The notes under the pieces are model-generated. The model had not been told where the DNA came from, did no database searches, and was given only the letters and a program-made list of their open reading frames with translations. Both the position numbers and the translations under genes were made by a program. Of a DNA stretch of 64,000 nucleotides, positions 11,980-62,930 are shown piece by piece; the first letter of the stretch is position 1; every line of letters begins with the position of its first letter. Source of the DNA: Antedon bifida (lineage: Eukaryota; Echinodermata; Crinoidea; Comatulida; Antedonidae); NCBI GenBank assembly GCA_963402885.1, contig OY727094.1:14262501-14326500 (forward strand), read 5' to 3'.

Positions 11980-14900
11980 ATGGCAGACGTAGAAGCAGAA
12001 ATTTCTTATCCATTAGAAGTTGTATACTGTGGATGTGAGTGCTGTTCTCAATTATTTATTGTATGCTATAGTATAAAAATAATGAATGTTTAAGAGTGCA
12101 TGCAATGGGCCAAATACTTTGTGAAACATTTCATCTTTCACGGAATAAAATTGCATTGCACAAATACAAAATTTTTTCATTCATTTTTTTCACACCTACT
12201 GTACTCTTAACGAACATTTTTTTTTTAAATGGTGGATTTTCGACTGCGCAGTTAACAACCTTGCGTCACACTCTGACGTAAGAGTTAAGTAGTATGTCTA
12301 TTGAACATCATGTGACCCACAATCCTCCAATCAAATAAGAATCTGTTCAGGTGTATTATAATCCTATCTTAATACCATTATATGCACATAGATTAACAAG
12401 TGGGGATTTTTTAGGCCTATTATAAATGCTATATTGAAATAAAGAATGAAAATGTAGATAAAAATGTACATATAATGTTTAAAAAAAAAATTATAACTTC
12501 TAAAGTTTTGTAGAGTACCTTTAAGTTTAAATGTTAAACAAGTTCAATCTGTCATGTCATAATATTAAAGCTGAATTGGATTTTTTTTGTTTGTTTAATA
12601 ATCTTCTTTTTTTATTGTAATGATTATAGATTGTACCATGCAACCTGAATTGTGTGAATACGGTCCTGAATATGAAAAGTGTAAAGACTGGTTGCAGGAG
12701 AACTTCCCAGACATGTTTGAATCTATGATGTCGCTGAATGATGGAGATGCAGAGGGTGGTGAAAAGAAGAAAAAACAAAAACGAGGTCAGTCAAATATAG
12801 AAGGGATGATCATATCCCAGCATTTCAACTTTCAATCCCCTTTCCCGTCCATTGTAAGTCTTGAGTTTAAATGTATGTTTATTGAAATGTGCTTACCTTC
12901 AAATCCCAAGGTCTAGGGTTCAATCCTGGAAAATTGTAATTCACGATTTATTTACGGTACAGCTAGAAATTACTTCAAAAGTTTCTGCTCCGTTTATGTG
13001 AGGTACCCCACGTTTCCGCTCTATGGATGTCAGGTACTCCACTAAGTATATTATTTATTTTTTATTTTTCAAAGGAGGAAAAGGAGTTTTAAAAACCAAA
13101 AAGAAAGCAGAACCACAGACTATTACAATACGCCGACAACAAAGAAACAAAAAGAAAACCGTTACAATTATAAAAGGTCTTGTCACGCATGGTAAGATTT
13201 GTAGCAGCTCTTTATTGATTTTATATTTGTGAATAAAGAACACATAATGTAATGGAAAAAACATAAAGTTAGATTATTTTTTAGAAAGTTTAATTAAAGG
13301 ATCCATATTAGGGCATACATTTCTGCTGTTAATATAAACTATAAATCTATTTAACTGATAATAATCAAAAAGCGGAAATGAGCATCGTCAAATTAAGCCT
13401 TTTTTTTTTTAAAGTGGTGCTACAGAACTTTTTCATAAAATTATGAGATAGGAATTTTACTGATTTTCAATTATTCAAAAACCCTAACCACATAACTCTT
13501 TCTAATTAAAATAGTATATTCCTGTGTAAAATTGATTGGTCCTTCAATTTATATACTTTTTTCTATAAGGAAAGTACTTACTAATTTTCATAAATATCAG
13601 TTTCGGTGAATTTGCTATCTTATAACATTACAAGAAATGTTATAATAACCAATGCATTCTATTAGTGGCAGGTTTCCTGCTGTCAAATGTGACTGGAAAT
13701 AAATATATAGTGCCATTACTAAAAAACCTGAAATGAATTATTTTTCTATAGGAATTGAACTACCTGCGGCGGCAAAACGTTTCTCACAGAAGTTTTCCTG
13801 TGGCTCATCTGTAACTGGTGAGGATGAGATCATTATACAGGGTGATGTCACAGATGATCTCATAGACCTTCTAGAAGAAAAATACAAGGTAATCTTATTC
13901 AGTCTAATTCAATGTGATTTGTCAATCTTGAATGAATAATGCTGAGGTTGTGAGGCAGCCCACTAAATCAAAACCCTTTTATTTAGGTGTATTCTGTAAC
14001 TGGTCTATTCCCACTGCACGCATCGTGGAGTTTGGGGAGCTAGATCTGTTGATTATCTGCACAAAACAGCCTATGCAGACAGATAAACAATCAACGCCTA
14101 CTGCTTGACTAATAATGCAGAAGTTTCTTTAATATATCAGTCTGTTTAAATTTTCGTTACATGCCTGATTTAGTAATCTGGTATGATGGTACATGTGATC
14201 AAGGTAATATAGATTGGCTAGAGGGCAGACTCCAATGTTATCACAGTTAGAAAAATGATTCGATTTATAGAGAACGAACCAACAAGATGGCGGCAATTGG
14301 ATACGCCACTACGCAGTCACGCACTACTACACATGTGTTGTACGATATGCCTCGCAGCCTGTTGAGCGTATAAACACATTCTATATGATTATGATCTTGT
14401 ATACTAGAAATTATTTATTCCATTGTGATTAACAATATATTTGATTTTATAAAAAAGCAAAAATATTTGTGATTTATGTGGTCTTAATTTATTATTTTAA
14501 ATTTATATTTTTAAATTTCCAGTCAGGAGTCACCGCTCTAGCCTATCTATATAATCATTTTCCATAGCCTCTGCACATTTTCCTCACTAAAATGATTAGT
14601 ATTTTTGACTATTTGCATATTTATAAAAAACCACTAGTGAGTGACAATGCCTGTACCACCAGTCAAGAAAGAAACAGGAAATATAGCTCTTTCTAATGCA
14701 CTTTGACTTTAGGAACTTTCATAAGTGCAAATTCTGTAAAATGAAGGTACTATCAAAGGTTATTTCCAGCATATTGTGCACACCCTTATACCTATTTAAA
14801 AAGATTTTTATTTTTTGTTTTTAGGCCAAGGATTACCAATAGTAAACTAATCACTGTCCTATCAGATATAGGTGGTAATCCCCCTGATACAGGGGCTATT

Positions 14901-29200: not shown

Positions 29201-31798
29201 GTTTACCTTCTCGACCAATATATACCGTACGTGACTAGAATATTTTCTTTTTTATTGTCTAAAAATAATGGAAAATTTGTTTTTATAGTTTCTATGGTCA
29301 TAGACGTGAACGTCACATCGTCAGAAAACGAAAACGTCTTGTCACTACAATGGGAAACACCAAATGAAGAAACTCAGTATTTATACCGCATTACGGGAAA
29401 CTATACTGGACAATCACTAAATGAAAGTGTTGAGGAAGAATTAACATTGAATAACATTGACATAAATGTGCCGTGCAACAACATCACAGAGAACACCATT
29501 GTCTATAATCTAGAGCTAAGGAGTGTTCAGGTAGACACGTTTGAAGTAGAAGTCGAAGGTCCTCCAACCAGGATATTATATGAGTTCAAATGCTTGAAAC
29601 AAGGTGTGTTGGCCTATGTCTCTTTATTATACCTAGAGGGTTCGCTTGTGCATGTATTTGGAAAACACCCATATTCGGGGTAAACTTTGTTTTCATCGTC
29701 AATAAATACTTAAACAACTAATAGTAAATAAGGGTTTCATTATATGGTTAAATCATAACCAAAAGTATGCACCAACTTTCTGTATCATTGAGTAAAGTCA
29801 GGAAATCATTTGGCTTCTTCTCAAAAGCTACGGTAATATTCTGAAAAGTGCTCAACACTTACTTTACTTTAATGTTGGCAAATTTGCATAATCTATTTTA
29901 CTTCATGACATAATGTATAACTAGAGATAGAGCCTCATATTTACCAATTTCATTTCTTTTTTAGGTTTGGTGACCGAGATACAACCCGTAACTCTGAATA
30001 CAGTTGCAGTACAATATGAGCCTAGTATGTGAATAAGCCTATTAACAACTATTACAATTTAGAATAGCACACATGTCGAGTTTAATTGCGACAATGTTAG
30101 GCCTACTTATTGTTGTTTCTCTACTACTGAATGCTTAGAAATAGCCTCACTACTGCATATAATATCTTCTTATGGCAAATTTACCAATAGCCATACGTTA
30201 ATCTGAACATAGCGTAATTTTACTACCTGCTTGAATAATATTTTGGGTGCATTTGTGTGTTCAAATTAAAGAAGTGCCTCTATTGTTTTAGATGTGATCG
30301 TATTGTTCATAATCCATATCGAGAAAAAAATGATTGTTTCTCTTGTTTTTCTTTTACAATGTTCATGTTTTCAAAAAATTTGCAACAATTCATGATCTAT
30401 TTGTTGTACTTTCAGATGAATTTATCATTCCGTTTCTTGTGGTGGGAATTATTATCTTATTTGTTATGCTGTTTTTTGGAGCTTTTAATGTGTATATACG
30501 TAAGCGAATTTTCATTGAATGGCCTGAACCAAAATTCTTCAAAGTGGTAAATATCATTATTTTTATTGCTTTTAAGTTAAAGATGTATTGTCCCCTTGAA
30601 AACATATTTTTCAAAATTTGCCATTTTAATGTCACATAATAGTTATCCTCTTTGACCAAAAAATGGACCGAAAAAAATGTATTTGCCTGAAAAATCAGTA
30701 TAGTAATTTAAAGCAAAAAATAGTCAAATTGGCTGCCAGTCAATGGTTTTTGGTTTAATTTAACAATTTATTTTTGTCATTTTGTAAGTAAGAACATTTT
30801 TTTTTCGTTTTTTTCTATGGAAGTGACTTTATTAAAACTACAAAATAACCAATCCAAAGTCTGATTTAATTAATCTTTATTTTTCAGGTTTTTGGGGGAC
30901 ATACATCTTTAAGGGTTAGGCAGCCTAGATGATTTTTATTTATTTGTCATCTTTAATAAGGATAACCCGTGTAGATCCTTCATTAAAAAATGATATTAAG
31001 GGTCCTCTAGCTAAATGATGTAGGTGTGTATTTTACGAAATTCAATCCACTTTACGTGGTAATGAAAAGTTGTTTAGAACCACGGATTCACTTTATTTGT
31101 CCTAACAGATGTGAAATAACATGTTTAATAAAGATATCTCTTTTATTTAGGAAATTAGCCCCGTTCGTCCTCGATCAGTAGAAAAGGAAGTTTTTGATGA
31201 CTTGAAGACGAAGAAGTCGGACTTACCTACATCGTACCGCAGTTCAACGAGTTCTGATCAAGGATTTCATGAGTTTAGTCCTGATTCCCAGATAGAAGAG
31301 AAAAATATTTACATGGTTGTACCGTCTATTGACCAAGTCTCACCAGTTACGAAAAGTGGTTTTATAAACTCATCACCAGTTACCACTGACAAAATGGCAG
31401 TTAAAGAGAAAAGCACGGCATACTTTCGCCTGCAACAAACAGGTGATGATGATGCACTGCAATTGTCTCCATTACTCGTGGAAAGCACAAGAAATAAGCA
31501 GGACTCAAATCCTTACACGCCAATGAGGTCAGTTTCCTCAGATAAACCTCAGAAGTCAGAAAAATGTGGAGGAGAGAACGTTACAGATCCTTACTGGAAA
31601 TTAGATGAGGTTCTACGTGTAAAAGTAGACAACGCACACGCTGGTTTGACGGAGTTTATTCCAGTCTCTACATGCGATTATTACAGCAGAGAGGAAGACA
31701 TAGGGGACATCATTGGAGAAGACGAAATTGATAATCTTCTGAATGGTATGCCACAGACAAATGTAGAACTTATTGAAGATGGCCATTTTATATTCTAG
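23297..31798 (+). CDS. Class I cytokine receptor, gp130-like (Ig + cytokine-binding module + FNIII + TM)
   Basis: Ten coding exons: 23297-23390, 23730-24023, 24383-24494, 25259-25425, 27914-28062, 28748-28889, 29289-29603, 29965-30024, 30416-30546 and 31151-31798; all phases agree and give 703 aa. Residues 1-26 form a signal peptide; 32-129 an Ig-like domain (NFTC...IEWKV...WIECF); 130-222 the first cytokine-binding FNIII domain with the hallmark LNCRSTNIVDYWCTW; 223-320 the second, with WFQLRYRR and a WSxWS-type box written FSDWS (309-313). A further FNIII domain spans 320-424, a membrane helix 447-472, then RKR and a Box 1-like IEWPEPKFF. The tail carries tyrosines at 517, 542, 579, 610 (YTPM, a possible PI3K-SH2 site), 636, 665 and 666, and no YxxQ. 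Such receptors bind helical cytokines and signal through JAK/STAT. The end of exon 2 is uncertain by one codon (alternative donor GTAAGT at 24027). Confidence 0.92.
24572..24616. repeat. Perfect 22-bp palindrome with a 1-base loop
   Basis: The left arm TACCTAAAGAAATGTTTCAT(TT) at 24572-24593 is exactly complementary to 24595-24616, with a single C between. It lies in receptor intron 3, directly next to the end of a retrotransposon fragment. DNA or RNA here could fold into a near-perfect hairpin. Confidence 0.95.
24617..24800 (-). mobile_element. RTE-like retrotransposon C-terminal fragment
   Basis: The minus strand from 24795 down reads GRDDIISNTGQSLARPAQNR and then a RFEEGYIRQC-like end. 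This matches the WRDDI...AQNR...LEEAY pattern at the very C-terminus of RTE-type ORF2 proteins, as in the fragment at 19636-19860. Only about 60 codons remain. It lies antisense in intron 3 of the cytokine receptor. Confidence 0.65.
24935..25205. repeat. Degenerate GATTACAGATT / GATTATTGATT simple repeat
   Basis: Irregular runs of GATTACTGATTACAGATTAT fill the end of receptor intron 3. The units are 7-11 bp and poorly ordered. The run ends about 50 bp before exon 4. Confidence 0.85.
25801..27893 (+). repeat. 49/44-bp minisatellite, about 44 copies, in receptor intron 4
   Basis: The main 49-bp unit starts AAAGATTCACTGAAGTAACT and ends CACGATCTAATCGTT; a 44-bp variant lacks 5 bp at its start (AACACTGAAGTAACT). 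Long and short units alternate in blocks between about 26530 and 27560, giving a higher-order pattern. Each copy contains CATGGCTGTACGCACGATC with recurring A/G variants at the CGCA/CACA position. The array ends 20 bp before the exon 5 acceptor, so the polypyrimidine tract of that splice site directly follows it. Confidence 0.98.
30577..30912. mobile_element. MITE-like element with TTAAAGATGTATTG ends, copy 2
   Basis: Inverted relative to the copy at 7332-7685. Ends are TTAAAGATGTATTGTCCCC and GGGGGACATACATCTTTAA. It begins only 30 bp after the exon 9 donor of the cytokine receptor (30546), inside intron 9, and is non-coding. Confidence 0.75.
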
Positions 31799-32610
31799 AA
31801 TTATTAAATGTTTTAGTGTACGGTACTGACTTTACTTTATTTGTATATAAAATAATTATTGGAATTAGGCCTATATTTTGTCTCGTTAGTCACAGGCTAA
31901 ATTCTAATTTCATGATGAAACATGATGAACTAAACAGGCGTCTCCTTCCAAAGAACTAAATCGTTAATGATATTTTTTTCCATTGACTAGAGGTTATATC
32001 CTTATTTAACCTTTTGAAGACGTGATCCGTTTCCCATACGGGGTAATTTACTCTCCCAGGACGCGAGGCCCGTATATGTACGGGTTGACTTTTGGGGGTC
32101 ACTGAAATTGCACTTTTTGAGCATTTGACTTTGACCTAGGTAAAAAAATGACATTTTTCGGAAGGCAGAAAGTAGTTGCAGAAAGTTACAGTTAAAAATG
32201 TATTTTGAATTTGAATTAAAAATACCTTATTTTAGCCTCAGTGACTTGGGGTAGAAACCTCGCGTCTTCAAAGGGTTAATCTTTATTTATAACCTAAGAA
32301 GGGTGTATATATATAAACTCAGATCTCGGATATATATCTAAGATCTCGGATATAGGCCTATATGAGTTTCTAGATTCATCTAGAAAACTCATAGGCCAAC
32401 ATCTGTGTTTTTCTAGATTTAATTTAGAATACTCAGATTTTCTGAGATTGTTTCCATTTTCTAGAATTAGAAAACACGGGATCCATATTAACCAGAGGGT
32501 ATATGTCTAATCGAAAGCTCCTAAGTATACAAGGAAAATCATGCATATATCTTTATGAAACGAATTAATGGTAATGTTTTAATTAGAACAATAAATAGTT
32601 ATATTGTAAA
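31799..32610. other. 3' flank of the cytokine receptor
   Basis: Probable 3' UTR and spacer. An ATTAAA lies at about 31803, right after the stop; no canonical AATAAA was found close by. The stretch 32300-32470 is rich in AGATCTCGGATAT and TCTAGA words that can pair with each other, resembling the AGATATCCGAGTTTTT words at 46750-46900 in the GST gene. Confidence 0.5.
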
Positions 32611-44498: not shown

Positions 44499-47400
44499 CT
44501 AAAGATGGCTTTCCATTATCTCAACCTAGTCGTGCCGTAGTATTGTTTTGCAAATATAACAAGATACCCTACCATGAGAAAGTCATCGACTTGGCAAAAG
44601 GTATGCTTTTTTATTTTAGTCACTGTTAAAATATACTGTTGCTTTAAACGTATCCGGACAACTACCCCTAGACAATTACCACCCGAACAACTACCACCCG
44701 AACAATTACCCCCATAGGACAACTACCCCTAGACAATTACCACCCGGACAATTACCACCCGGACAATTACCCCCATAGGACAACTACCCTATAGGACAAT
44801 TACCCATAGGACAAGTACCACCCGGACAATTACCACCCGGACAATTACCCCCATAGGACAACTACCACCCGGACAATTACCCATAGGACAAGTACCACCC
44901 GGACAATTACCCATATGACAACTACCACCCGGACAATTACCCATAGGACAACTACCCTATAGGACAATTACCCATAGGACAACTACCACCCGGACAATTA
45001 CCCCCATAGGACAACTACCCCCCCCCCCCCCCACCCATGTATGCTGCCTTGGCAAGTGAAACATATTTTTTAGAAACAGCACTCTAATAGATCACATTCC
45101 AAGTTATCGTAGCATTTCTCAGCTCAAAAAGAAAAAATGAGTTGACGGCACGTATGTCCACCTTAAAAATCCTGAATCAGGGTGATGACGGAGAGGGGAA
45201 AAAATAAGAACCCCTTCACTTTGCGTCCAAGACCAAGACCTCCTCACCTCTATTATGAATACACATGTGCACATGAAATAGTTATATGGAGTTTCTAAAA
45301 ATACCCAGACAAATTTGCTTAATCATGCTTGAGTCAGTGATTTTCATTTATTCATAGGAACAAGGTTTACAATGAAAACCCTATAGTATGCCTGGTTTGA
45401 TAATCAGGTCTACAAATATTATAGGTCTAATTATCGATGTTACAGGTCCCTTTGCTGTGGTTTTTAATAATAGTCAACATTTCAGAGCCACTAAATATTT
45501 GTTATCTCAAGGATAATCAAAATTGCGGAAAGAATCAGCAAAAAGAATATTGTAATTTTAAACATTCATTTCATTATATAATTATTCATACATTTACTAC
45601 AATACTCCAATTATGTAGGTTGTCCAGAATATAATTCTTCGTGATTTAAGGTCCGGTTATACTACGAAAGATAACGAACGACGATAATATATAAAACAAA
45701 GATATTTATTTTAAAAATAAAATTAGAAAATTTTCGAAACTATAACACTTATGCTGCTGTCTTTGGCCTAAAATAAGATTTTTTTTTTAATCAAATGAAA
45801 ATGACGTCATGATCAATAAGAACAATAAAATTGTGATATCGTCACGATAGTATTGCTATTACAAATCATGACGTCATTTAATTGAACGAAAATAGAAAAA
45901 TAGCAAAATGTATATTTACCTTTGTAATCGTCCTAGTACAATGAGCCTTTATTGACTGAATGTAGTCCACTGTCTTAAAAGTTGTTTAATTATTTTCAAA
46001 AATTGTATTAGACATTTTGTATATACTGTAGAAAATAATAACGTATAATGTTGTTTGACAGGTGAGCATAGAATGCCGGAATACACTGCAATCCAGCCAG
46101 CTCAGTCAGTACCAGCAATTAAAGATGGTGATTTCACACTTGGAGAAAGGTATGCCTTACTCCCCTTGTCCAACCTTGTAGGCTACATTGTAAAGAATAA
46201 AGCAAGTGTGAAGAAGTTTTTTTTTTTAATTTTATGGATCATTTTCTCCAATATCCCCTAATTGCAGGTGATACAACACAGAAATTACAAGTTGACAACA
46301 TAGTGTTTACTAACGAACACTTTCCCATATCTATAGGCCTAAACATTTTAAACTTGGTAACGACAGTCTATAAATAATAAGGCCCTTTTGAATTCTGGTT
46401 TGTTTCTTTGTAGTACTGCAATAGTGAGATATCTGGCGGCAAAATACAACGTAGCAGATCATTGGTATCCTAAAAATATTGAGACTCGGGCTGAGATTGA
46501 TGCCTACTTAGCCTGGCAGCATACAGGTATTAGGAAAGCGGGAATTAACGTCATGGTGAATGAGGTAAATAACAATGTAATGTTTCATTTCAATGTTATG
46601 CTGCTAATGTGTGGTATGAAGAACTAACATTACGGTCATATGACTAAATTCGGGAAGATGACGTAATTAAAGGGAAAATGGGCTGGAATAAGGCGAAACC
46701 TAAGTCAGTGTCCTAAACGTTATTATTTTTCATAAATATTGTTACTCAAAAACTACAGTCATATCCGAGTTTTTAGATCTAGAAAAGCCAGATATCCGAG
46801 TTTTTCAGATGTATCAAAAAAGATATCCGACTTTTGTAGATCTAAAGAAGATATCTGAGTTTTTATAAGAAGAAGAAATCTCTAGAAAAGTTAGATATCC
46901 GATATCATAATTTAAAAGTAAAGTTTAAAACATACATAACTCATGCAACCATAAAAAACGCTTGTTACAAAAACGACGGCTAGATCAATGAGATATACGG
47001 GAGCAACTTAAAACCTACACAACCAGTCAAAATAAGACCACTGTTATATTTGTATACAGATATTTGTTCCAAAACGTACCGGGAAACCAAAAGATCAGGA
47101 GGCAGTCGACAAGTTTGTCAAAGAAGCTGAAGAGTCCATCGGCAAGATAAATAGGTTATTTCTCAAAGGAAAACGGTTCTTGTGTGGAGACGAGATATCT
47201 GTTGCTGACTTGTTTGCTATTTGTGAGGTAATCACTAGATTTAAAAGAAATTTAGGTTGTGGTTAATATTTTGGTTTGGCATGCGCAGAATCAGATAATG
47301 TGCATGTTACCTCAATACAAAAATAAGTAATTCGAAATTATGATCATTTTCCTCCATAGTTGTACATAATGTACCATACATTCCACTGTCTGAATCAAGT

Positions 47401-50400
47401 ATCGTTCATTTAATGTAGGCCACTATGTAATTTCGTGTCATTTTTTTGTTAAAAGCAAAATTCCAGCTGATTTAGTATCTTTAGGATGTAAAGTAATGAA
47501 AAAAATATGTTGCCATTTTTTTAAAAAAGCTTAAGGGTGTCAAATCCAAGATGGCCGCCAATACGTAAAATATCCAATAAATGTACCATATTGGACAAAG
47601 TAACACCCTTTATGAATAATATTTTAAGTTCATATGGGTTCTCTGCTATATAAGAATTATTATAAACCTATATTCATTAGTATTCTGACATTTTGAATTT
47701 CAAAATGGCCGCCATTTTTTTTAAATGGATTAAATTTCTTATTAAAACATGTGCAAGTTATGACGTTGATTGAAATCACATAAAATGACAGGCCTATGAC
47801 AACAACATTGGTGATTAACACAAAATGGCGGCCATTTTGAATTTCAAAATGGCCACCATTTTTTAAAAAATGGGTTAAATTTCTTATTAAAACATGTGTA
47901 AGTTAAATAAAATTAGATTGAAATACACAAAATGATATGCTTATGACAACAACATGATGATTAACACAAAATGTTGACCATCAGGAGGTCTGAACAGTAC
48001 ACTTCTTCAAATTAAAACATCTCATAAACTTCTTCAGTTAAATGACAACTAACTCTGCCAAAGTCCTTCAATGAAATATTTCTAATCTTGAATGCGATAC
48101 AGTAAATTGACCTTCCTTCGTTTTCTACTACTGTATCCATCAAACTTCCACAGACTGATCTGCGATCCCAACAAGCTTGTTCAGAAACAAATTGGCAAAA
48201 GTACTGAAATACATCATTTCACCGCCAAATAATCTCTATAGGAGTCCTCTTTTACTTTAATAAGTTTGTCACCTGTATTCACCGTCATATATATTTTTTG
48301 CCAATATTCATCTTTTTCTTAGGATCCCATATAGACAGTTTGCCTTCTACAAGACTTTTACTAATCCCTCAAACATTTTCTGTCCAATTTCATCATGCCA
48401 TGGCCAACAAACACCTTTGTGCAAATTGCAGCATTCTTCATTAATCGGGATATCATCTCTCTTTAAATGTTGGCTTTCAAACTCATCAACTAGCTTTGCC
48501 AGCTCTGATGAAATCATTAATTTGTGTTATTCCAATGATACCACGCTCAATGACCCTGATCAATTGATGTAAACCCAGCAAGTCCCACACATACATGTCC
48601 TCTCATAAACTCCAATATCTGTAATTTGTTTCAGTAATCTGTTGAAATTGATACAGCGGAAGTAACCGGTCGTAGTTCAGGTGGTCATGAGCGAAGAAAT
48701 ATTTGATAAAAGGATGTGTACTTTTCATGTGTGCAGATATCGTTTTCTTGTGTCTCGGACATATATAGGAATATAGTTTAACCACATCATTTAGATTTCG
48801 TAGACTCTCTGTATCCAAGTTAATATCTTTATGATCAGCCTCTTTCAAACAAAATGATACTTCACTTAGAATCTCTTTCTCTGTCTGCATTTGTAGAAGC
48901 AAGTTGTAGAGAGAAAGCAGAATTAGTGTGCTTCTGTCCTTCCTTCGTTTTCTACTACTGTATCCATCAAACTTCCACAGACTGATCTGCGATCCCAACA
49001 AGCTTGTTCAGAAACAAATTGGCAAAAGTACTGCAATACCTCATTTCACCGCCAAATAATCTCTATAGGAGTCCTCTTTTACTTTGATAAGTTTGTCACC
49101 TGTATTCACCGTCATATATATTTTTTGCCAATATTCATCTTTTTCTTGGTATCCCATATAGACAGTTTGCCTTCTACAAGACTTTTACTAATGCCTCAAA
49201 CATTTTCTGTCCAATTTCATCATGCCATGGCCAACAAACACCTTTGTGCGAATTGCAGCATTCTTCATTAATCGGGATATCATCTCTAAGATGTTTTCCA
49301 TCTAAGATATTTGTGTCACTGGTTGTATAGGTAATACAAGTTCAGTTTCAACAAAAGCACTGGCCTCAACACTATTTTCACAATGCTACAGTCCAAAAGT
49401 CATGTAGTTTACCGGGTCGACATAATAATTGCTTCTTGATGTCATCTCTGTCCACCTCCACTCATCTCAGGCAAGAGTCATCACCAGGCATTTTTGTCTT
49501 TCCCTAGTACATGAGTTTTTATACCACAACCATGTGCACTCATCAAACCAGTGTATAATGGTGGTCTATCTGTAGGGGTATATATCTAATGAAATCGGTT
49601 GAGATTGTAGAAGATGAGAAGTAGGAGTTAATGCTGCCTATGAATAACCTTGTGAATGAGCTGTATCTTTATTTCCTTCAAGCTTCTGCCAAAAGTTGAC
49701 AGGTTGAAAACTTACCAACCATACTGGTGACTATGGCCCTGAAGGACATTGAATTACATAGCAATAACGCATTTATTATTTAACATCATATTTATACAGG
49801 ATTTCACAATAAGGTATAAATGCACTTGTTTTATATTGTGGTCCTGTCTCCTGTCAAGTTTCAGTTTCATGAAAAGAAATGAGATCTGTAATTTAGACTC
49901 TATATATAAATTATGGTTAATTCTGACATAGGCGAGCACAATGGAAAAACTTTGGAACAAATCTCTGCCTTGGATACCTACCTGAACTATCTCAGATGTA
50001 CCGCGAAATGTAAATTTAATAACAGTTTTTACTATTACGATATTGTTCCATATTTCTATCTTAGGAATATATTATAAAGAGTTTTAAAACAAAATTTCTG
50101 ATTTCATCGGTAGATTTTCAACTCAATTTCAATTGTACGCGGTCAAAGTAATTTCCGGGTTCACGATGAGTTCACAGGTTCACCTTGCAACTACACAATT
50201 ATACTATTTGTAATAGAATTCATCACACTGTTAACTACAATTTACCAAGCATTTGTTATTATTTTTTACCACTTTTCATATATATTAGAAGATTGCATTT
50301 GATCATAAATGTTACGATATTATTAAAACTAAAAAATCCCTCGAATAAGCATCTCCCTCAAATGAACTCTGCCTCCGCCCTATAAGGGCCCTACAAAACA

Positions 50401-53400
50401 ATAAACACTATACTTTAAAATGTTATTAATCATCTAAGACACTGTGATACAGAGTAGGTTTAGTTTTTCGAATGTCAAGCATTTTCAATAATGGTAACCG
50501 ACAGAAAACGTACAAAGAGAACGTCCTTCTAAAACCTTTTTACCCGAGTCATTATCATTCCGAGAACCATCGTTTACACTCCTAGCCCACCCTCTAGTTA
50601 GACGTAATTGTTGATGAATATTTGATATAAATTGGTAAGTTGTTCCATACTTTTGCAACTCCAAATTTGAACGATTAGTTAATTTAAGAGTCATAGTGGG
50701 TATTATATATCTGTTATATAGAGAACATTGACAACTTTAGACAGCCTTATATTTAGACAATCCTGTGAGAAGTGACAATTTTAGAACATTGTGTACCAAC
50801 AACAATTTATGCACACATATTTAAAAAAAATTATTTAAAGAATTTAATTTTTAGTGGCGGCCATTTTGAAATCCAAGATGGCCGACAGATTATCGCTTTA
50901 CATAGTTAAGACTGTATAATGGGTACAGTAATACCATCAAAACGGACTTGTTCCACATTCATAATTTGTATTATTGGTGATATTCTGATTTTTAATAGGG
51001 TTATTTGAATGCTGGCGGCCATCTTGAATTTGGTCCTTTAAATGTCTTTTGAAAAAATGGCAACATATTTTTTTTCATTCCTTATATTATCAAGATATGA
51101 AATAAAGTTAAAGTTTGCTTTTAACAAAAAATATACACGACATTCATATAAACGACATACCAGCCTACACTAATTAGGCTATTCATCAACCATCAATGGA
51201 CAACCTTCCGACGGAGCTATAGTTCATTTTATACGATACATTCCCATTGTCCAAATCATCCTATCGCTCTTTATTCATCAACCATCAATGGACAACCTTC
51301 CGACGGAGCTATAGTTGATTTTATACGATACATTCCCATTGTCCAAATCATCCTATCGCTCTTTATTCATCAACCATCAATGGACAACCTTCCGACGGAG
51401 CTATAGTTCATTTTATACGATACATTCCCATTGTCCAAATCATCCTATCGCTCTTTATTCATCAACCATCAATGGACAACCTTCCGACGGAGCTATAGTT
51501 GATTTTATACGATACATTCCCATTGTCCAAATCATCCTATCGCTCTTTATTCATCAACCATCAATGGACAACCTTCCGACGGAGCTATAGTTTATTTTAT
51601 ACAATACATTCCCATTGTCCAAATCATCCAATTGCTCTTTATCCATAACCTATTAACGGACAACATTCCGACGGAGCTAGCTAATTTTATACGATACATT
51701 CCCATTGTCCAAATCATCCTATCGCTCTTTATTCATTAACCATCAACGGACAACCTTCCGACGGAGCTATAGTTGATTTTATACGATACATTCCCATTGT
51801 CCAAATCATCCTATCGCTCTTTATTCATCAACCATCAACGGACAACCTTCCGACGGAGCTATAGTTGATTTTATACGATACATTCCCATTGTCCAAATCA
51901 TCCTATCGCTCTTTATTCATTAACCATCAACGGACAACCTTCCGACGGAGCTATAGTTGATTTTATACGATACATTCCCATTGTCCAAATCATCCTATCG
52001 CTCTTTATTCATCAACCATCAACGAACAACCTTCCGACGGAGCTATAGTTGATTTTATACGATATATTCCCATTGTCCAAATCATCCTATCGCTCATTAT
52101 TCATTAACCATCAACGGACAACCTTCCGACGGAGCTATAGTAGTTGATTTTATACGATATATTCCCATTGTCCAAATCATCCTATCGCACTTTATTCATC
52201 AACGGACAACCTTCCGACGGAGCTATAGCTGATTTTATACGAGACATTCCCATTGTCCAAATCATCCTATCGCACTTTATTCATTAACCATCAACGGACA
52301 ACCTTCCGACGGAGCTATAGTTGATTTTATACGATACATTCCCATTGTCCAAATCATCCTATCGCTCTTTATTCATTAACCATCAACGGACAACCTTCCG
52401 ACGGAGCTATAGTTTATTTTATACGATATATTCCCATTGTCCAAATCATCCTATCGCTCTTTATTCATCAACCATCAACGGACAACCTTCCGACGGAGCT
52501 ATAGTTGATTTTATACGATACATTCCCATTGTCCAAATCATCCTATCGCTCTTTATTCATTAACCATCAACGGACAACCTTCCGACGGAGCTATAGTTTA
52601 TTTTATACAATACATTCCCATTGTCCAAATCATCCAATTGCTCTTTATCCATTACCTATTAACGGACAACATTCCGACGGAGCTAGCTGATTTTATACGA
52701 TACATTCCCATTGTCCAAATCATCCTATCGCTCTTTATTCATTAACCATCAACGGACAACCTTCCGACGGAGCTATAGTTGATTTTATACGATACATTCC
52801 CATTGTCCAAATCATCCTATTGCTCTTTATTCATTAACCATCAACGGACAACCTTCCGACGGAGCTATAGTTGATTTTATACGATACATTCCCATTGTCC
52901 AAATCATCCTATCGCTCTTTATTCAACAACGGACAACCTTCCGACGGAGCTATAGTTGATTTTATACGATACATTCCCATTGTCCAAATCATCCTATCGC
53001 TCTTTATTCAACAACGGACAACCTTCTGAAGGAGCATGGTTTGATTTTATAAGATGCATTTTTGTCATATCATTGTTTATTCATCAACCCGAAACAATAT
53101 ATCGATTAAAAAAACGAAATTCTTGGAAATATTTGGAGTTTATGTTACATGATTAGTGCATGCATTAGTAAGAAAAAATTTCATTCGTTCCAATTAAAAT
53201 ATTTCATTATAGTATTATAGTATATTCCATTATAATAGTAGTATTTTTAAAATTCTTTCAGCTTGTTCAACCGTTGGCCTGTCCATCTGGTAAAGGTTTA
53301 CTGAAGAACCAGCCGGAAATTGCTGACTGGATGAAACGTGTGGAAGACAAATTGAATCCAGATTACGATGAATTGAATAAACCACTGAAAGCAGTTTGCC

Positions 53401-53408: not shown

Positions 53409-54149
53409 ACTAAATAGGCCTCTGTAAGAGATGGCCGTTTATGTTCTTTCTATCATTTTCCAACAACTAAAGTAGTTTAAGTTTCTTTCATTGTTGTTTA
53501 TTAAACATTTCCAACAATATGTTACAATTAGTTCTTCTTTCGTTTTATTAAAACATTTTTCTAACAATTTTACAATTAGTTCTTTATTTTCGTTTGTTTA
53601 TTAAAACATTTTCCATCAACAATATATTAATTACTTTTTATAAATTATTAAACAATAATTAAGCTTATTTTCAAGGAGTTTTTTGCACAAGTGCCACTAG
53701 TTTGGAACCAGCTTTCACTCCATACCCGTCAATGTAAATCTCTTAAGTAAATCAAGTAACTTCTAAAATCTCACCTTTTTAATAATTCTTGTTGGTCTTT
53801 TAGCGCTGTAAAACATCAGTAAATAGCGCTTTATAAAAGTTTATTATTCTTTTAAATATATAATATATATTTATAATAATATACTAATGTATATACAGTA
53901 CTATAATAGTTCTCTTTAATGGAGACTATGTTTTCCCATATTCTATCTCCTCCTAAACCTCACAGTCGACACACTTTTTCAAACAAAAAACGCTTCAAAC
54001 CAATGTCTCTGCTACATCTTTATGCCTTAACCATTCTTGACATCCTTACATGTCACATAGTTAGGTCGCAGAGAGGTCATAATTACACATGTCCATTGGA
54101 AGAATCTTGTAAATATATTATTTGAGTTGTAAAATTTTTGACCTATGCA
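53409..54149. other. Intergenic region between convergent GST and OGFOD2 genes
   Basis: Both 3' UTRs must fit in these 741 bp. ATTAAA occurs at about 53503 for GST, and TTTATT at 53840-53845 (AATAAA on the minus strand) could serve OGFOD2. AT-rich; no other gene is supported. A 68-codon ORF at 53919-54125 is not convincing. Confidence 0.5.
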
Positions 54150-57100
54150 TTATAAAGTACAACAAACATCGACAGTTGTATTTTCTGGTTGAGTGAATCC
54201 ATCTCCGAATCCAACAGTCTTAATAAGTTCAGGTTTATTATCACACATTGGACACACTTTATTCCTTATTTTGGAAGATCGCATCCAAATAATTAGATTG
54301 TACCGTTCACCATCTGCTACTGGAAGAGCACCGTGCATGTGTTGTCCTCGATGAATTAAACCATACGTTGGCTTGTGGCAATATTCAGTACGCTGTGGTT
54401 CTTCTATTCCTCGTTGCTGTTAAAAACAACACAAAATTAACAAACCTGCTATGTTGCTATATAAAAGACAACCATGTCAATTCAACAGAGGTATACAAAA
54501 GCCAAAATGGAAGCCTAGTGTGCAATATTTTATATGACTAATGTTAGACTGGCTTTAGACTGCCACCAGGAAATGACATTAAGAACATCTTGTCTTGAGT
54601 CCTTATCATGTGTATGAACAGAAAAGTTCAGGTACTCAAAACAAGCATCTGAGGGTGGTTGGGAGAATATATACAATATGATTGTCACCAATATAGCTAC
54701 ATTTTACATTATTCGGGTCATAATAACAAAATTGTATTCGGGTCATAAAAACAAAATTGTATCGGTCATAATAACAAAATTGTATCGGTCATAATAACAA
54801 AATTGTATCGGTCATAATAACAAAATTGTATCGGTCATAATAAAAAAATTGTATTCGGGTCATAATAAAAAAATTGTATCGGTCATAATGAAAAAATTGT
54901 ATCGGTCATAATAACAAAATTGTATCGGTCATAATAACAAAATTGTATCGGTCATAATAACAAAATTGTATTCGGGTCATAATAACAAAATTGTATTCGG
55001 GTCATAAAAACAAAATTGTATCGGTCATAATAACAAAATTGTATCGGTCATAATAACAAAATTGTATCGGTCATAATAACAAAATTGTATTCGGGTCATA
55101 ATAACAAAATTGTATCGGTCATAATAACAAAATTGTATCGGTCATAATAAAAAAATCATATTGGTCATAAAGTATTACTTAAAATAGAATGTAAACCATT
55201 TAATTATGGTGTTCAGTGCCAAAATTATACAAATCGTTGCTTTGTTTTTTATAACCGGATACATTCAGGCATTGTTTTTACTTACATGACGCATGCCTCC
55301 AAAATACAATGAGCCCTCAGTGAAATCACTTGTAAGTGATATATTAAGAGTGACCTCTGCATTATCATAATGATAGTTAAGATCCAAATCTTCTCCAATC
55401 TTGTACTTTACAACAAAAGCTTTGTGAGAGTCTAACAAGTCTCCACCACAGTCTGGATACAAGAGCCTAGCGAGTGGAGTTATGTAATTCTGACGTAAAG
55501 GTGTGATGAAGTAGTCATCAAATCCCAATTCATTCATTAATACCTACAACAAAATACATTTTGAGAATTTTAAGCAGGTCTATGCTTTACTAATAGTAGT
55601 GGCTTTTATTTTATTTTTATTTATTTTCAATCCTTCTACATAACAAAGAAATCAAATAAATTATTTAAAAACAAAATCAATATCAAGAAGTGATAAAATA
55701 CAGTAAAAATCACAATGCTTGGTCAATTGTAGATCATGGAAATCAATGAATTCTACTACATATTATACAAATGTGTTATAATACAATATTGTGTGTAATG
55801 CATGTGGTGGCATTTATTTGAGGAAAAAAGTAAAGGTTATGGGCTGTTTATGAGAGGGCATTTATACCAAATGATGTTGTATGGGGTAGGGGGAGTTAAT
55901 TTGAGGTGGGGGTTTGAGTAGTTTATGCAAAGCAGGGCATTTATGGTAACCACACTTACACCATAATTGTTCATTGTATTTGGTCTTCCTTTTGGTAAAT
56001 CTGTGTTTTCAAAATGTTCTATTTCTTCTTTAAATGAATTACAAAACTCTTCAGTAAAAATTGGAAAAGAGTAAATACGCTCTCCTACATAAAAAAAACA
56101 GTTAAATGTGAAACATGAAACGTAATTACAGTAAATATGCAAGTTTTTGAATGCCATTTTGAGTTATAGAACTTCCATGGTTCACAAAATAACAATGCAA
56201 AAACATGTAATTTTACCATTTTCTGGGTGCTTGACTTTCCTTTAATGTGTTTGAAATATGCCTTTTTGTCAAATAGTTTTAATCATATAGGAAAGCCTAC
56301 TATACTAGTGTGGAGCTTTGATTTTTATCTTTTTCGATTACTGTTCAATGGCAGAATGAGCTTCACAATGTACAGTTATTATATGGCAATCAGAGAATCT
56401 TTTACTAACTTTTTATAGAATTTGATTACAATAGGTCAACTATCAACAAACCTTTTTCAGTACTTATAATGTAGGCTGGTATGTCGTTTATATGAATGTC
56501 GTGTATATTTTTTGTTAAAAGCAAACTTTGACTTTATTTCATATCTTGATAATATAAGGAATGAAAAAAAATATGTTGCCATTTTTTCTAAAGAAATTTA
56601 AAGGACCAAATTCAAGATGGCCGCCAATACTCAAATAACCCTATTTAAAACCAGAATATCACCAATAACACAAATTATGAATGTGGAACAAGTCCGTTTT
56701 GATGGTATTACACATTATACAATCTTAACTATGTATAGCGATAATCTGTCGGCCATCTTGGATTTCAAAATGGCCGCCACTAAAAAATAAATAATTTTTG
56801 TTGTTTCAACACAATGTTCTAAAATAGTCACTTCTCATAGGATTGTCTAAATATAAGGCTGTCTAAAGTTGTCAATGTTCTCTATATAATACCCCTACTA
56901 TGACCCTTGAATTACCTAATCGTTCAAAGTTGGAGTTGCAAAAGTATGGAACAACTTACATTGATATCAAATATTCAGCAACAATTAATTCTAAATCTAA
57001 ATTATAGATCTCATTTCTTTTCATAAAAGTGAAACTTGTATTTCAATGTTTGTATCTCAGACAGGACCACAATATAAAACAAGTGTATTTATACCTTACT

Positions 57101-60100
57101 GGCAATTATACCCGCCACAGGGCGGCTTTCTAAATTAGTTTAAAGCCTTCTCAGACCCCAGTGTCCCTATACCCGCCAACCTCCACCCCCCTTCAATAAC
57201 ATCCCACACTCTTTTTTAAAAACAAATTCTTCCCAGGACAAATGTCAATTCAACTTTAGGGTTAGGGGTATACATAGCTATGATAGGCCTATGTTTTAAG
57301 TACGTTGTAAACTGTGTAAATGAATAGGTGTCATATTGGCTGATATATATAATTTAGATACTGCGGCCTCCAGCCTTCTTTCTCCTATCACCATCCCAGC
57401 CACAAAAACAAACTCCTCCCATGGACAGTTCAAATGTAGTAACTTTTCCTAGTACAATTCCAATCATGTTATACTTCATTACGCCAGTATTTCCGCCCCT
57501 CTTCCTCCCTCCCAACACATCCCAGATACTGGGTGATTGTGTTTAAGACGTTTCCAGTACAAATTATGTTAGCCATCACTACCAACTCATAATCCCTCAG
57601 TGCCTGTTTTCAGATGTAGTTTAAAACATTCCCAGTACAGTTTCGGTCTTGGTGACAGGCATACATCCCCACCCCCTTTCCAGGGCTAATTAAAATACTT
57701 TATAACAATTTCCTACCACACAGTTCTGGTCAATTTGATAGCTTACTACCCCTAGCCTAAGCAAAATTAAATTCCCGGTACAATTGCGGTCATTTTGATA
57801 CCTCATATGCATGGTTACGTGCTGAAACAGAACTAACATCGAAAGTGAGGAAAAGTGGGCCATTTTGACCACATTTTGGCCCCTAATGCTTGGTTCCCAC
57901 TAGAGACGCAACAAAACGACGTAACGCAACGTAAGGGATTTGACCAATCACAAGCGATGGATTTATTTGACGGTCGCTTGTCATTGGTCAACTGGTTTGC
58001 GTTGCGTCTACGTCCTTGCATTGCGTCCTAGTGGGAACCAAGCTTAACTTAGATCCTAGATGGCGGATAATGTTCAAATTAGAACTTTCCCGGTACAATT
58101 CTGGTCATTTTGATACCCAATATGTAAGGTTATGTGCAGTAACAAATATTTGTATAACGCACAAACAAACAAACGTACAAACTCTCTAACTTATAATATA
58201 GATTGTGAAATCCTGTATAAATATGGTGTTCAATAATAAATGCGTTATTGCCATGTAATTCAATGTCTGAAACTTCAAGGCCATGGTCACCAGTATGGTT
58301 GGTAAGTTTTCAACCTGTCAACTTTTGGCAGAAGCTTGAAGAAAGATACAGCTCATTCACAAGCTTCATGGGCAGCATTAACTCCCACTTCTCATCTTCT
58401 ACAATCTCAACCGATTTCATTAGATGTACCTTAAAGTTGACCACCATTATACACTGGTTTGATGAGTGCACATGGTTGTGGTATAAAAACTCATGTACTA
58501 GGGAAATACAAGATAATGCCTGGTGATGACTCTTGCCCGAGATGAGTGGAGGTGGACAGAGATGACATCAAGAAGCAATTATTTCGACCTGGTGAATTAT
58601 ATGGCTTTTAAACATGTAGCATTGTGAAAATAGTGTTGCGGCCAGTGCTTTTGTTGTATTGTATTACCTATACAACAGTGACACAAATATCTTAAAAACT
58701 CTGCTTTCTCTCTACAACTTCTGACACTTTTCTCGAAAAAATTCAGACAGAGAAAATGATTCTAAGTGACGTATCATTTTGTTTGAAAAACGCTGATCAT
58801 AAAGATATTAACTTGAATACAGAGAGATGTGGTTAAACTATCCCTATATATGTCAGAGACACAAGACAACGATATCTGCACACATGGAAAGTACACATGC
58901 TTTTATAAAATATTTCTTTGCTCATGACCACCTGAACTATGGCCGGTTACTTCAGCTGTATCACTTTCAACAGATTACTGATATTGGAGTTTATGAGACG
59001 ACATGTATGTGTGACAAAGGGAATTGCTGGATTTACATCAATTGATCAAGGTCATTGAGCATGGTATCATTGGAATAACACAAATTAATAATTTCATCAG
59101 AGCTGGCAAATCTAGTTGATGAGTTTGAAAGCCAACATTTAAAGAGAGATGATATCTTGATTAATGAAGAATGCTGCAAATCCCACAGAGGTGTTTGTTG
59201 GCCATGGCATGATGACATTGGACAGAAAATGTTTGAGGCATTGGTAAAAGTTTTGTAGAAGGCAAACTATATGAGATCCTAAGAAAAGGATGAATATTGG
59301 CAAAAAATATATATGACGGTGAATACAGGTGACAAACTTATCAAAGTAAAAGAGGACTCCAATAGAGATTCTTTGTCGTATCACATAGTCAGCTGGTACA
59401 GTACTGTATATAAGAACGTATGAGCATTTGGGGGTGAACTGAGGTATTGATTGCAGTACTTTTGCCAATTTGTTTCTGAACAAGCTTGTTGGGATCACAG
59501 ATCAGTCTGTTGAAGTTTGATGGATACAATAGTAGAGAACGAAGGAAGGTCAACTTACTATATTGCATGCATAATATATGCATTCAAGACAGCGCACTGA
59601 TTAGAAATAATTATTTCATTTGGCAGAGTTAGTTAATCACCATGTTGTCATAGGCATATCATTTGTGTCATTTCAATCTAATTTAATTTAACTTACACAC
59701 GTTTTAATAAGAAATTTAACCCTTTTTAAAAAAATGGCGGCCACCATTTTGTGTTAATAACCGTGTTGTTGTCATGGCCTATCATTTTATGTGATTTCAA
59801 TCAACGTCATAACTTGCACATGTTTTAATAAGAAGTTTAATCCATTTTTTTAAAATGGCGGCCATTTTGAAATTCAAAATGTCAAAATACTAATGAATAT
59901 AGGTTTATAATAATTTTTATATAGCAGATAACCCATATAGCATTAATTTAAACTTAAAATATTATTCATAATGGGTGTTACTTTGTCCAATATGGTACAT
60001 TTATTGGATATTTTACGTATTGGCGGCCATCTTGGATTTGACACCCTTAAGCTTTTTAAAAAAAATGGCAACATATTTTTTTTATTACTTTACATCCTAA

Positions 60101-62930
60101 AGACACTAAATCAGCTGGAATTTTGCTTTTAACAAAAAAATGACACGAAATTACATAGTGGCCTACACTATTATGAGTTTTATCAAACTTTGCATTGATG
60201 CATTTTTCTGCTTGCTATGTTCAACCAACTCCAGAAATGTTAGGCTCAGAAATGAAATCTACAACAATTTTAACGAGAAAATATAATACCATAAAGAAGA
60301 AAAACTTTCCAACAATTTTAAATATTTTTAGTCAAGATATTTAACTAAAAATATAACTAAAGGGGGAAGTTGTTCTTGTCAGTTGTAGTGAGACAAGTAG
60401 TCAAGATAAACGTTTGTTGTAATAGTTGGTCTTTACAAAATCAGACATGCATTCATAGTTGTATTCCGTCAGCAAGGTGTAGTTAACAGGTAAAATATTC
60501 TTTTCATTTTTGTACTACTTAATTCCATACCTGTAGTTTGTATATCTCTTGATTGAGTGGTGTGTAATGTTTTAAAATTGTCTCTTTTCTCTTTAAATAA
60601 TCTCGGCCAAGTAATTTTCTACGTTCTACTTCTGTTTTAACCTGAAATGAATTGTTAGTGAGATAACATGTGTTTAATGGTATGAAATAAAATAAAGAAA
60701 ATATAGTTTTGCATTTGAAAGTCCCACTATGAGGAAAATTGTCTGCATGAGCCAAATTCTGTTTTATTCCTAGAAGAGTTTATTGACAATTCACATTTAC
60801 TGATATATGTTTATAATATACTAATTATCACAACTTGTCTTCATTCATAACTTGTCTACGTTTCTTGTTTGTTACCATTATTCTGCTACACATATACAAT
60901 TATTCTGCTACACATGTACCGTATTCTGCTACACATGTACAATTATTATACTACACAGGCACTGTATTCTGCTACACAGGTAATGTAATCTGCTACACAG
61001 GTACCGTATCCTGCTACACAGGTACCGTATTCTGCTACACAGGTACCGTATTCTGCTACACAGGTACTGTATTCTGCTACACAGGTACCGTATTCTGCTA
61101 CACATGTACCATATTCTGCTACACAGGTACCGTATTCTGCTACACATGTACACTATTCTGCTACACAGGTACCGTATTCTGCTACACATGTACCATATTC
61201 TGCTACACAGGTACCGTATTCTGCTACACAGGTACCATATTCTGCTACACAGGTACCATATTCTGCTACACAGGTACCGTATTCTGCTACACAGGTACCG
61301 TATTCTGCTACACAGGTAACGTATTCTGCTACACATGTACACTATTCTGCTACACAGGTACCGTATTCTGCTACACATGTACCATATTCTGCTACACAGG
61401 TACCGTATTCTGCTACACAGGTACCGTATTCTGCTACACAGGTACCGTATTCTGCTACACAGGTACCGTATTCTGCTACACATGTACACTATTCTGCTAC
61501 ACAGGTACCGTATTCTGCTACACATGTACCATATTCTGCTACACAGGTACCATATTCTGCTACACAGGTACCGTATTCTGCTACACAGGTACCGTATTCT
61601 GCTACACATGTACACTATTCTGCTACACAGGTACCGTATTCTGCTACACATGTACCATATTCTGCTGCACAGGTACCGTATTCTGCTACACAGGTACCGT
61701 ATTCTGCTACACATGTACACTATTCTGCTACACAGGTACCGTATTCTGCTACACATGTACCATATTCTGCTACACAGGTACCATATTCTGCTACACAGGT
61801 ACCGTATTCTGCTACACAGGTACCGTATTCTGCTACACATGTACACTATTCTGCTACACAGGTACCGTATTCTGCTACACATGTACCGTATTCTGCTACA
61901 CATGTACCGTATTCTGCTGCACATGTACCATATTCTGCTACACATGTACCGTATTCTGCTGCACATGTACCGTATTCTGCTGCACAGGTACCGTATTCTG
62001 CTGCACAGGTACCGTATTCTGCTACACAGGTACTGTATTCTGCTACATATGTACCGTATTCTGCTACACATGTACCATATTCTGTTGCACAGGTACCGTA
62101 TTCTGCTACACATGTACACTATTCTGCTACACATGTACTATATTCTGCTACACATGTACCGTATTCTGCTACACATGTACCGTATTCTGCTACACATGTA
62201 CCATATTCTGCTGCACAGGTACCGTATTCTGCTACACATGTACTATATTCTGCTACACATGTACCGTATTCTGCTGCACATGTACCGTATTCTGCTACAC
62301 ATGAACTGTATTTTGCTACTTGTACCATTATCAGCCAGATAACTTAACATAATTACATAAATTAAAACATCAATTACTTACGACTCTCAGAACGTCTGTG
62401 AATCCTTCTTCATTGTCACACCCTTTGTTTTTAAGAATCTACAAAATAATACAAACAATTCACATTTTATTATTAATATTATATGTACTATACAGTAGCT
62501 CCAATTTGAAGCTTGTTTCTCTCCATTTCCCATTCACATTTAAATTACATACCATATATGTACTCACTCAGTGTTTCAACGGAGCACTTACGGAAACTAC
62601 TACCATCATAATGTATAATTTGTTAATTTTGACCTGTGCATGTAAATTATAAAAATACTGCATACCCTAGACTAAAGGCCTAGGTCTAGGGTAGGGTTAG
62701 TTTAGACAGGCCTACTAGTTCTACTTAACTAGGCTCTGCTGTCTAGGCCTAGTAGCCTAAGTGTCTAGTTAAAAAGAAGATTTGGTAGCAACAGGTTTTA
62801 CCGGTTTCCAAATATCAGCAAATATTTTATCATCTATATACGTCACATGCAGTTTAAACTTAGGTAAAAATATGTTATGGGTGTAGTAACAGCTACAAAC
62901 ATAGAAGCTCTTTCTATCATCAAGACTCAT
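54150..62930 (-). CDS. OGFOD2: 2-oxoglutarate/iron oxygenase domain protein 2, exon 4 interrupted by a transposon
   Basis: Seven exons on the minus strand: 62930-62802, 62438-62382, 60641-60531, exon 4 in two pieces (60258-60171 and 56466-56452), 56084-55960, 55543-55286 and 54416-54150. With the transposon and one copy of its TTA duplication left out, the phases agree and 348 aa result; human OGFOD2 has 350. The N-terminus has FYVCSCYYTHNIF and FKLHVTY; the middle has VKTEVERRKLLG and LPKGRPNTMNNYG. The oxygenase core shows YPDCGG, DSHKAFVVKY, the iron motif HYDNAE (H232, D234), HRGQHMHGALPV with the distal His and ERYNL with the 2-oxoglutarate Arg (R298), and ends KVCPMCDNKP...GFGDGFTQPE. 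The family is predicted to hydroxylate an unknown substrate. In this sequence the in-frame read enters the transposon and meets a stop after three codons, so no full protein can be made from it as assembled. Confidence 0.93.
54711..55169 (+). repeat. 23/26-bp minisatellite in OGFOD2 intron 6
   Basis: The units CGGTCATAATAACAAAATTG+TAT (23 bp) and a longer form with ATTCGGGTCAT alternate about 20 times. Located between exons 7 and 6 of OGFOD2. Confidence 0.95.
57099..58203. mobile_element. 1.1-kb insertion nested in transposon copy 2
   Basis: The flanks TATACCTTACT and AGATTGTGAAATCC are adjacent in copy 1 (49795-49815, reverse orientation) but separated here. The insert starts GGCAATTATACCCGCCACAG and ends ACAAACTCTCTAACTTATAA. 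It encodes nothing recognisable, contains several TTCCCGGTACAATT-type words, and holds a small MITE at 57888-58043. The class is unknown. Confidence 0.7.
57888..58043. mobile_element. 156-bp MITE with perfect 16-bp terminal inverted repeats
   Basis: Ends are GCTTGGTTCCCACTAG and its exact complement CTAGTGGGAACCAAGC. Inside, GACGCAACAAAACGACG and TTGACCAATCACAAGCGA pair with CGCTTGTCATTGGTCAA and TTGCGTTGCGTC, so almost the whole element can fold on itself. A larger relative is at 16880-17165. Confidence 0.92.
60871..62331 (+). repeat. 21-bp tandem array (TTCTGCTACACAGGTACCGT+A), about 68 copies
   Basis: Fills most of OGFOD2 intron 2 (60642-62381). Positions vary in step: CAGGTACC/CATGTACC, CCGTA/CCATA/CACTA, CTACACA/CTGCACA. 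The recurrent five-to-six-unit order of these variants between 61100 and 61860 shows expansion in larger blocks. Because 21 is a multiple of three and the unit lacks stops in several frames, long false ORFs run along both strands. Confidence 0.98.

Follow-up and report, generated by a model that had tools for sequence, protein, structure and literature searches.

A transposon sits inside a coding exon of OGFOD2 in a 64,000-nt stretch of the crinoid Antedon bifida genome (C7:14262501-14326500, hereafter the window), and the question that this locus raises is whether the insertion has removed the animal's only copy of the gene or one copy among several. We searched the 315.6-Mb genome (27 contigs) for further copies of the gene and of the element. 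Positions below are those of the window unless a megabase position on C7 is given.

Structure of the interrupted OGFOD2 gene

The gene model occupies the minus strand from 54149 to 62930 and consists of seven exons, which encode 348 aa once the element and one TTA are removed. These are exon 1 (62802..62930, 129 nt, beginning with ATG), exon A (62382..62438, 57 nt), exon B (60531..60641, 111 nt), exon C, exon D (55960..56084, 125 nt), exon E (55286..55543, 258 nt) and exon F (54149..54416, 268 nt, with the stop codon at its end). Exon C is split into a 5' part (60171..60258, 88 nt) and a 3' part (56452..56466, 15 nt), each including the target-site duplication (TSD). The gene that carries the insertion is OGFOD2, as shown by its domain and by full-length alignment: the joined peptide (217 aa tested) matched the OGFOD2-like domain PF25238 of Pfam with an E value of 7.7e-40, and the best protein match of the 348-aa model was an OGFOD2-like protein from 'Antedo...' (98% identity over 100% of the length, 8 of 348 residues differing), followed by a protein of the crinoid Anneissia with 75% identity. 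Tandem arrays with 21-, 23- and 92-bp units lie within or beside the gene (60879-62319, 54716-55170 and 51180-53015) and vary between copies.

Exon C, the fourth of the seven, spans 56452-60258 with the element included and has AG as its acceptor and GT as its donor. The element itself occupies 56467..60170 (3,704 bp; ends TAATGTAGGC...GCCTACACTA), with borders that were set against 22 other full-length copies, and it is flanked by TTA on the left (56464..56466) and on the right (60171..60173). Once the element and one TTA are taken out, exon C measures 100 nt and its frame continues through the neighboring exons of 57, 111, 125 and 258 nt. When the element is kept, the frame reads ...LIKLIIV and then TAG, which falls just inside the element, about one third into the protein and upstream of the oxygenase core residues; skipping of exon C causes a frameshift with stops. 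The initial annotation had described all of this, namely a transposon inside an OGFOD2 coding exon, a TTA duplication on both sides, a 100-nt exon that fits the phases of its neighbors, a product that aligns with OGFOD2, a frame that ends at TAG and a frameshift upon skipping, and its description was accurate, for the element right to the base. Judging from the sequence, the element-bearing copy is most likely null.

A copy with this structure could still yield a near-normal protein if the element were spliced out as an intron, in the manner of an introner. Seven stop-free, in-frame donor/acceptor pairs were present in the stretches that we scanned, and the best of them, formed by the terminal inverted repeat (60166) and the TSD edge (56462), would add a single codon. 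However, this pair scored -1.1 (donor) and -4.9 (acceptor) with consensus splice-site matrices, compared with 0.9 and 0.5 for exon C's own sites and 2.1 to 8.3 for the other native sites tested with the same matrices. Introners are spliced out via sites at their own ends. The in-frame pair at the ends of the element here is weak, and we regard rescue by splicing as highly improbable.

The element family and the age of the insertion

The genome contains at least 24 places where the element is nearly complete (40 of 3,220 candidates scored). We aligned 23 full-length copies, including the window copy and the locus designated L002, from a total of 27 family loci; the alignment was made without L022, L026, L027 and L028, which are truncated or have an unlocated right end. 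Terminal inverted repeats are present (150-nt arms 75% complementary, with TAATGTAGGC/TAGTGTAGGC ends), and an exact 3-bp TSD flanks 20 of the 23 copies, the exceptions being L005, L011 and L016, the last of which has no left end. Thirteen different triplets occur among these 20 duplications: TTA five times, ATT three times, TAT twice and ten others once each.

Since a family with at least 24 near-complete places is repetitive, the element might have been placed in exon C by misassembly. Against this, the TSD is exact and the same insertion anatomy recurs in 20 of the 23 copies. Furthermore, the window element carries one private substitution and one private deletion, and thus is not merely the sequence of another copy. 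Misassembly appears to be the least probable of the explanations considered here, with very little to be said for it.

The window element contains no ORF of more than 120 aa from stop to stop, and its ORFs gave weak hits or none in Pfam, with nothing credible for the three tried; it therefore looks non-autonomous. A 134-aa ORF (48606-49007, minus strand) of a second element copy in the window gave no protein match at E <= 0.001. The window element resembles non-autonomous cut-and-paste DNA transposons found in exons in its inverted ends, short exact TSD, empty paralog sites and many near-identical copies, but its ends (5'-TARTGTAGGC) and variable 3-bp TSD matched no named superfamily. PIF/Harbinger elements, which have a TWA TSD, share with it a 3-bp duplication, which is TTA at the window copy. 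However, just 6 of the 20 TSDs were TTA or TAA and the ORFs tried held no transposase domain, and the variety of the 3-bp duplications (13 triplets across 20 of the 23 copies) argues against an assignment to PIF/Harbinger from the TTA alone. CACTA/EnSpm elements, whose termini begin 5'-CACTA or CACTG, likewise have a variable 3-bp TSD, and a CACTA motif occurs at one end of our element; here, however, TARTG stands at the 5' end and CACTA at the 3' end, opposite to the arrangement in CACTA elements, and we did not assign the element to this group.

The nearest relative of the window element was L002 (C8:29359513), which differs from it by one substitution and one indel, both of them private to the window copy. 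Nine substitutions are common to these two copies and occur in none of the other 21 that were aligned. Given this distance and the nine common substitutions, L002 is the probable source of the window element or a sibling from a common source. By comparison, 0.24% separates the next closest pair of elements, and the other copies have between 0 (L019) and 57 private substitutions each. The initial annotation had suggested a young or segregating insertion, and the separation from L002 agrees with youth, indicating that the insertion is very recent. From the one-substitution distance to L002, we infer that it may still be segregating.

OGFOD2 copies on C7

The 86-aa exon E was used as the query for the genome copy search (15 of 15 candidates scored), in which copies without exon E would escape. 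It gave 14 matches, all on the minus strand of C7 between 11.61 and 17.77 Mb (a span of 6.2 Mb), with 95-100% identity and no stops; neighboring copies are 0.16-1.25 Mb apart. OGFOD2 thus appears to have undergone amplification: in this one assembly, a single strand of C7 carries no fewer than 14 copies or remnants.

We read the stretches of all 13 other copies for the state of exon C. It was an uninterrupted 100 nt in ten, seven of which are identical to the window exon C minus the element and one TTA, and it carried a 5-nt deletion (95 nt) in the copy at 15.730 Mb. Upstream of exon E, we did not find it within 6.4 kb in the copy at 16.189 Mb or within 3.7 kb in that at 16.996 Mb. The uninterrupted exon in 10 of 13 other copies, together with the at least 24 nearly whole element places, argues that the interrupted exon C is not a chance reading.

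The initial annotation read the insertion as a probable null allele in a gene that is intact otherwise. This picture, taken as that of a single gene, is not supported by the 14 exon E matches on C7, five of which belong to full-frame copies, one of these identical to ours in its exons. The alternative given in the initial annotation, that another OGFOD2 copy exists, is supported. With thirteen more copies or remnants on the same chromosome, an unbroken twin among them, the insertion would disable a spare copy of OGFOD2 and not the animal's only one.

The arrangement is similar to segmentally amplified gene clusters with pseudogenes, in which near-identical copies, intact and broken, are mixed on one strand of one chromosome, but here neighboring copies are separated by 0.16-1.25 Mb. 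In one open-access library, we found no report of such amplified clusters for OGFOD2 and no paper that combines OGFOD2 with 'transposon insertion'. It is an ordinary process for a transposon to hit a member of an amplified gene family; the amplification of OGFOD2, with a copy number known from this genome alone, seems less ordinary.

A twin copy at 16.362 Mb

At 16.362 Mb, a distance of 2.04 Mb from the window copy, lies a copy that is identical to it at 1,048 of 1,048 exon nucleotides, and the two differ at 1 of 2,423 bp of repeat-free gene body and at 4 of 3,928 bp when flanks are included. This twin is a direct empty site for the insertion in exon C. The next nearest copy in the distance lists is 1.19% away, and such closeness would also be expected if the two copies were alleles of one locus that the assembly had placed 2 Mb apart, which would make the insertion an ordinary heterozygous allele. 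However, this explanation accounts for pairs only and not for 14 copies at distances of 0.9-3%, and an identity of 99.96% would mean a very low allelic difference for a broadcast-spawning echinoderm. The flanks also diverge more, with 18 mismatches per 500 bp in two bins at 42.2-43.2 kb and 90 in the outermost bin.

In addition, the window contains a diverged second member of the element's family (47411..51172, minus strand; TSD ATT), which lies in the GST gene, in an intron by position. It is 87-89% similar and older-looking. Its site is a single ATT, precisely empty, in the 16.362-Mb twin, though it is filled in the 14.154-Mb copy, a pattern that likewise counts against allelism. We consider it improbable that the window copy and its twin are two alleles, and prefer to regard them as separate members of the array.

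A 3.44-kb stretch upstream of OGFOD2 (63604 to 67043 in extended window coordinates) is absent from the twin. Within it, at about 65900-66900 (L009), are ORF pieces that we take to resemble a PIF/Harbinger transposase. We did not count this difference as another insertion: clean element borders are missing from the junction, and the twin may equally have undergone a deletion.

Intact and broken copies

Five of the 14 copies (16.362, 14.154, 12.865, 11.614 and 15.275 Mb) retain the complete set of seven exons and a frame of 348 codons up to the stop, with GT/AG borders. Two of these five have changes at residues that are invariant among 13 aligned proteins (G181R and C318F at 11.614 Mb, R283Q at 15.275 Mb). 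The other nine are broken, the window copy by the element. In the copies at 16.189 and 16.996 Mb, exons 1 to C were not found. At 13.072 Mb, the exon C acceptor is AC, and at 16.776 Mb, exon F was not found within 4.0 kb. The copy at 15.730 Mb combines the 5-nt deletion in exon C with a partial exon D; that at 15.433 Mb has 8-nt and 1-nt deletions, and its exon F was not found within 3.5 kb; that at 17.771 Mb has an 11-nt deletion in exon F; and that at 15.014 Mb has a 15-nt deletion in exon E, a 2-nt deletion in exon F and TT as the exon 1 donor.

Pairwise comparison of the five full-frame copies (10 pairs) gave a mean pN/pS of 1.11, each pair differing by 0 to 3 synonymous changes. We thus saw no sign of strong constraint on these copies, though the changes are few, and this average suggests that some of them may also be non-functional.

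The explanation that we consider very probable, taken as a whole, joins these observations. OGFOD2 has multiplied to no fewer than 14 copies or remnants along 6.2 Mb of one chromosome, partly alongside GST and DENR. A 3.7-kb DNA transposon, which apparently lacks an intact transposase gene and was presumably moved by a transposase from elsewhere, very recently entered the fourth exon of one copy and duplicated TTA. Transcripts from this copy would run into the TAG just inside the element, and those that skip the exon would be out of frame; splicing presumably offers no rescue. The remaining unbroken copies, the exon-identical twin included, would be expressed and supply the protein.

On the sequence, we judge the insertion to have newly created a null in a single member of a crinoid gene array that is amplified and decaying. 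The case is clean and datable: a transposon has broken one gene of a young array, and the genome also contains its probable sister element along with several empty sites. It also calls for caution, since a 'null allele of a conserved gene' seen in one window can be one spare copy among many. The OGFOD2/GST amplification may merit more attention than the insertion.

Neighboring genes and the history of the block

A GST exon (47036..47260, plus strand), from a gene that we take to be of the theta class, has eight close copies on C7, all with an OGFOD2 exon E at a distance of 3.1-22.6 kb, and a remote match with 28% identity. A DENR exon (12602..12910, plus strand) has three copies on C7, which lie 29-43 kb from an OGFOD2 copy. 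GST and DENR thus appear to have been partly co-amplified with OGFOD2, and their copy numbers and distances suggest that nested blocks were copied and no single fixed unit. Between the window and the 14.154-Mb copy, we counted about 17 substitutions in 45.25-51.17 kb, yet about 1.5% in the OGFOD2 part. Such mosaic identities likely reflect exchange between copies.

One could go further and propose that the OGFOD2-GST block is a rapidly turning-over crinoid amplicon, in which exchange between copies and fresh transposon hits make and remove functional copies, possibly with dosage selection on an otherwise single-copy, poorly characterised oxygenase. We offer this as a speculative and rather unlikely extension.

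Elsewhere in the window, ORFs at 23700-31800 (plus strand) appear to resemble a gene of the cytokine-receptor type; three ORFs gave no match in Pfam. A piece of a gene with a fibrinogen C-terminal domain lies at 3775-5199 on the minus strand.
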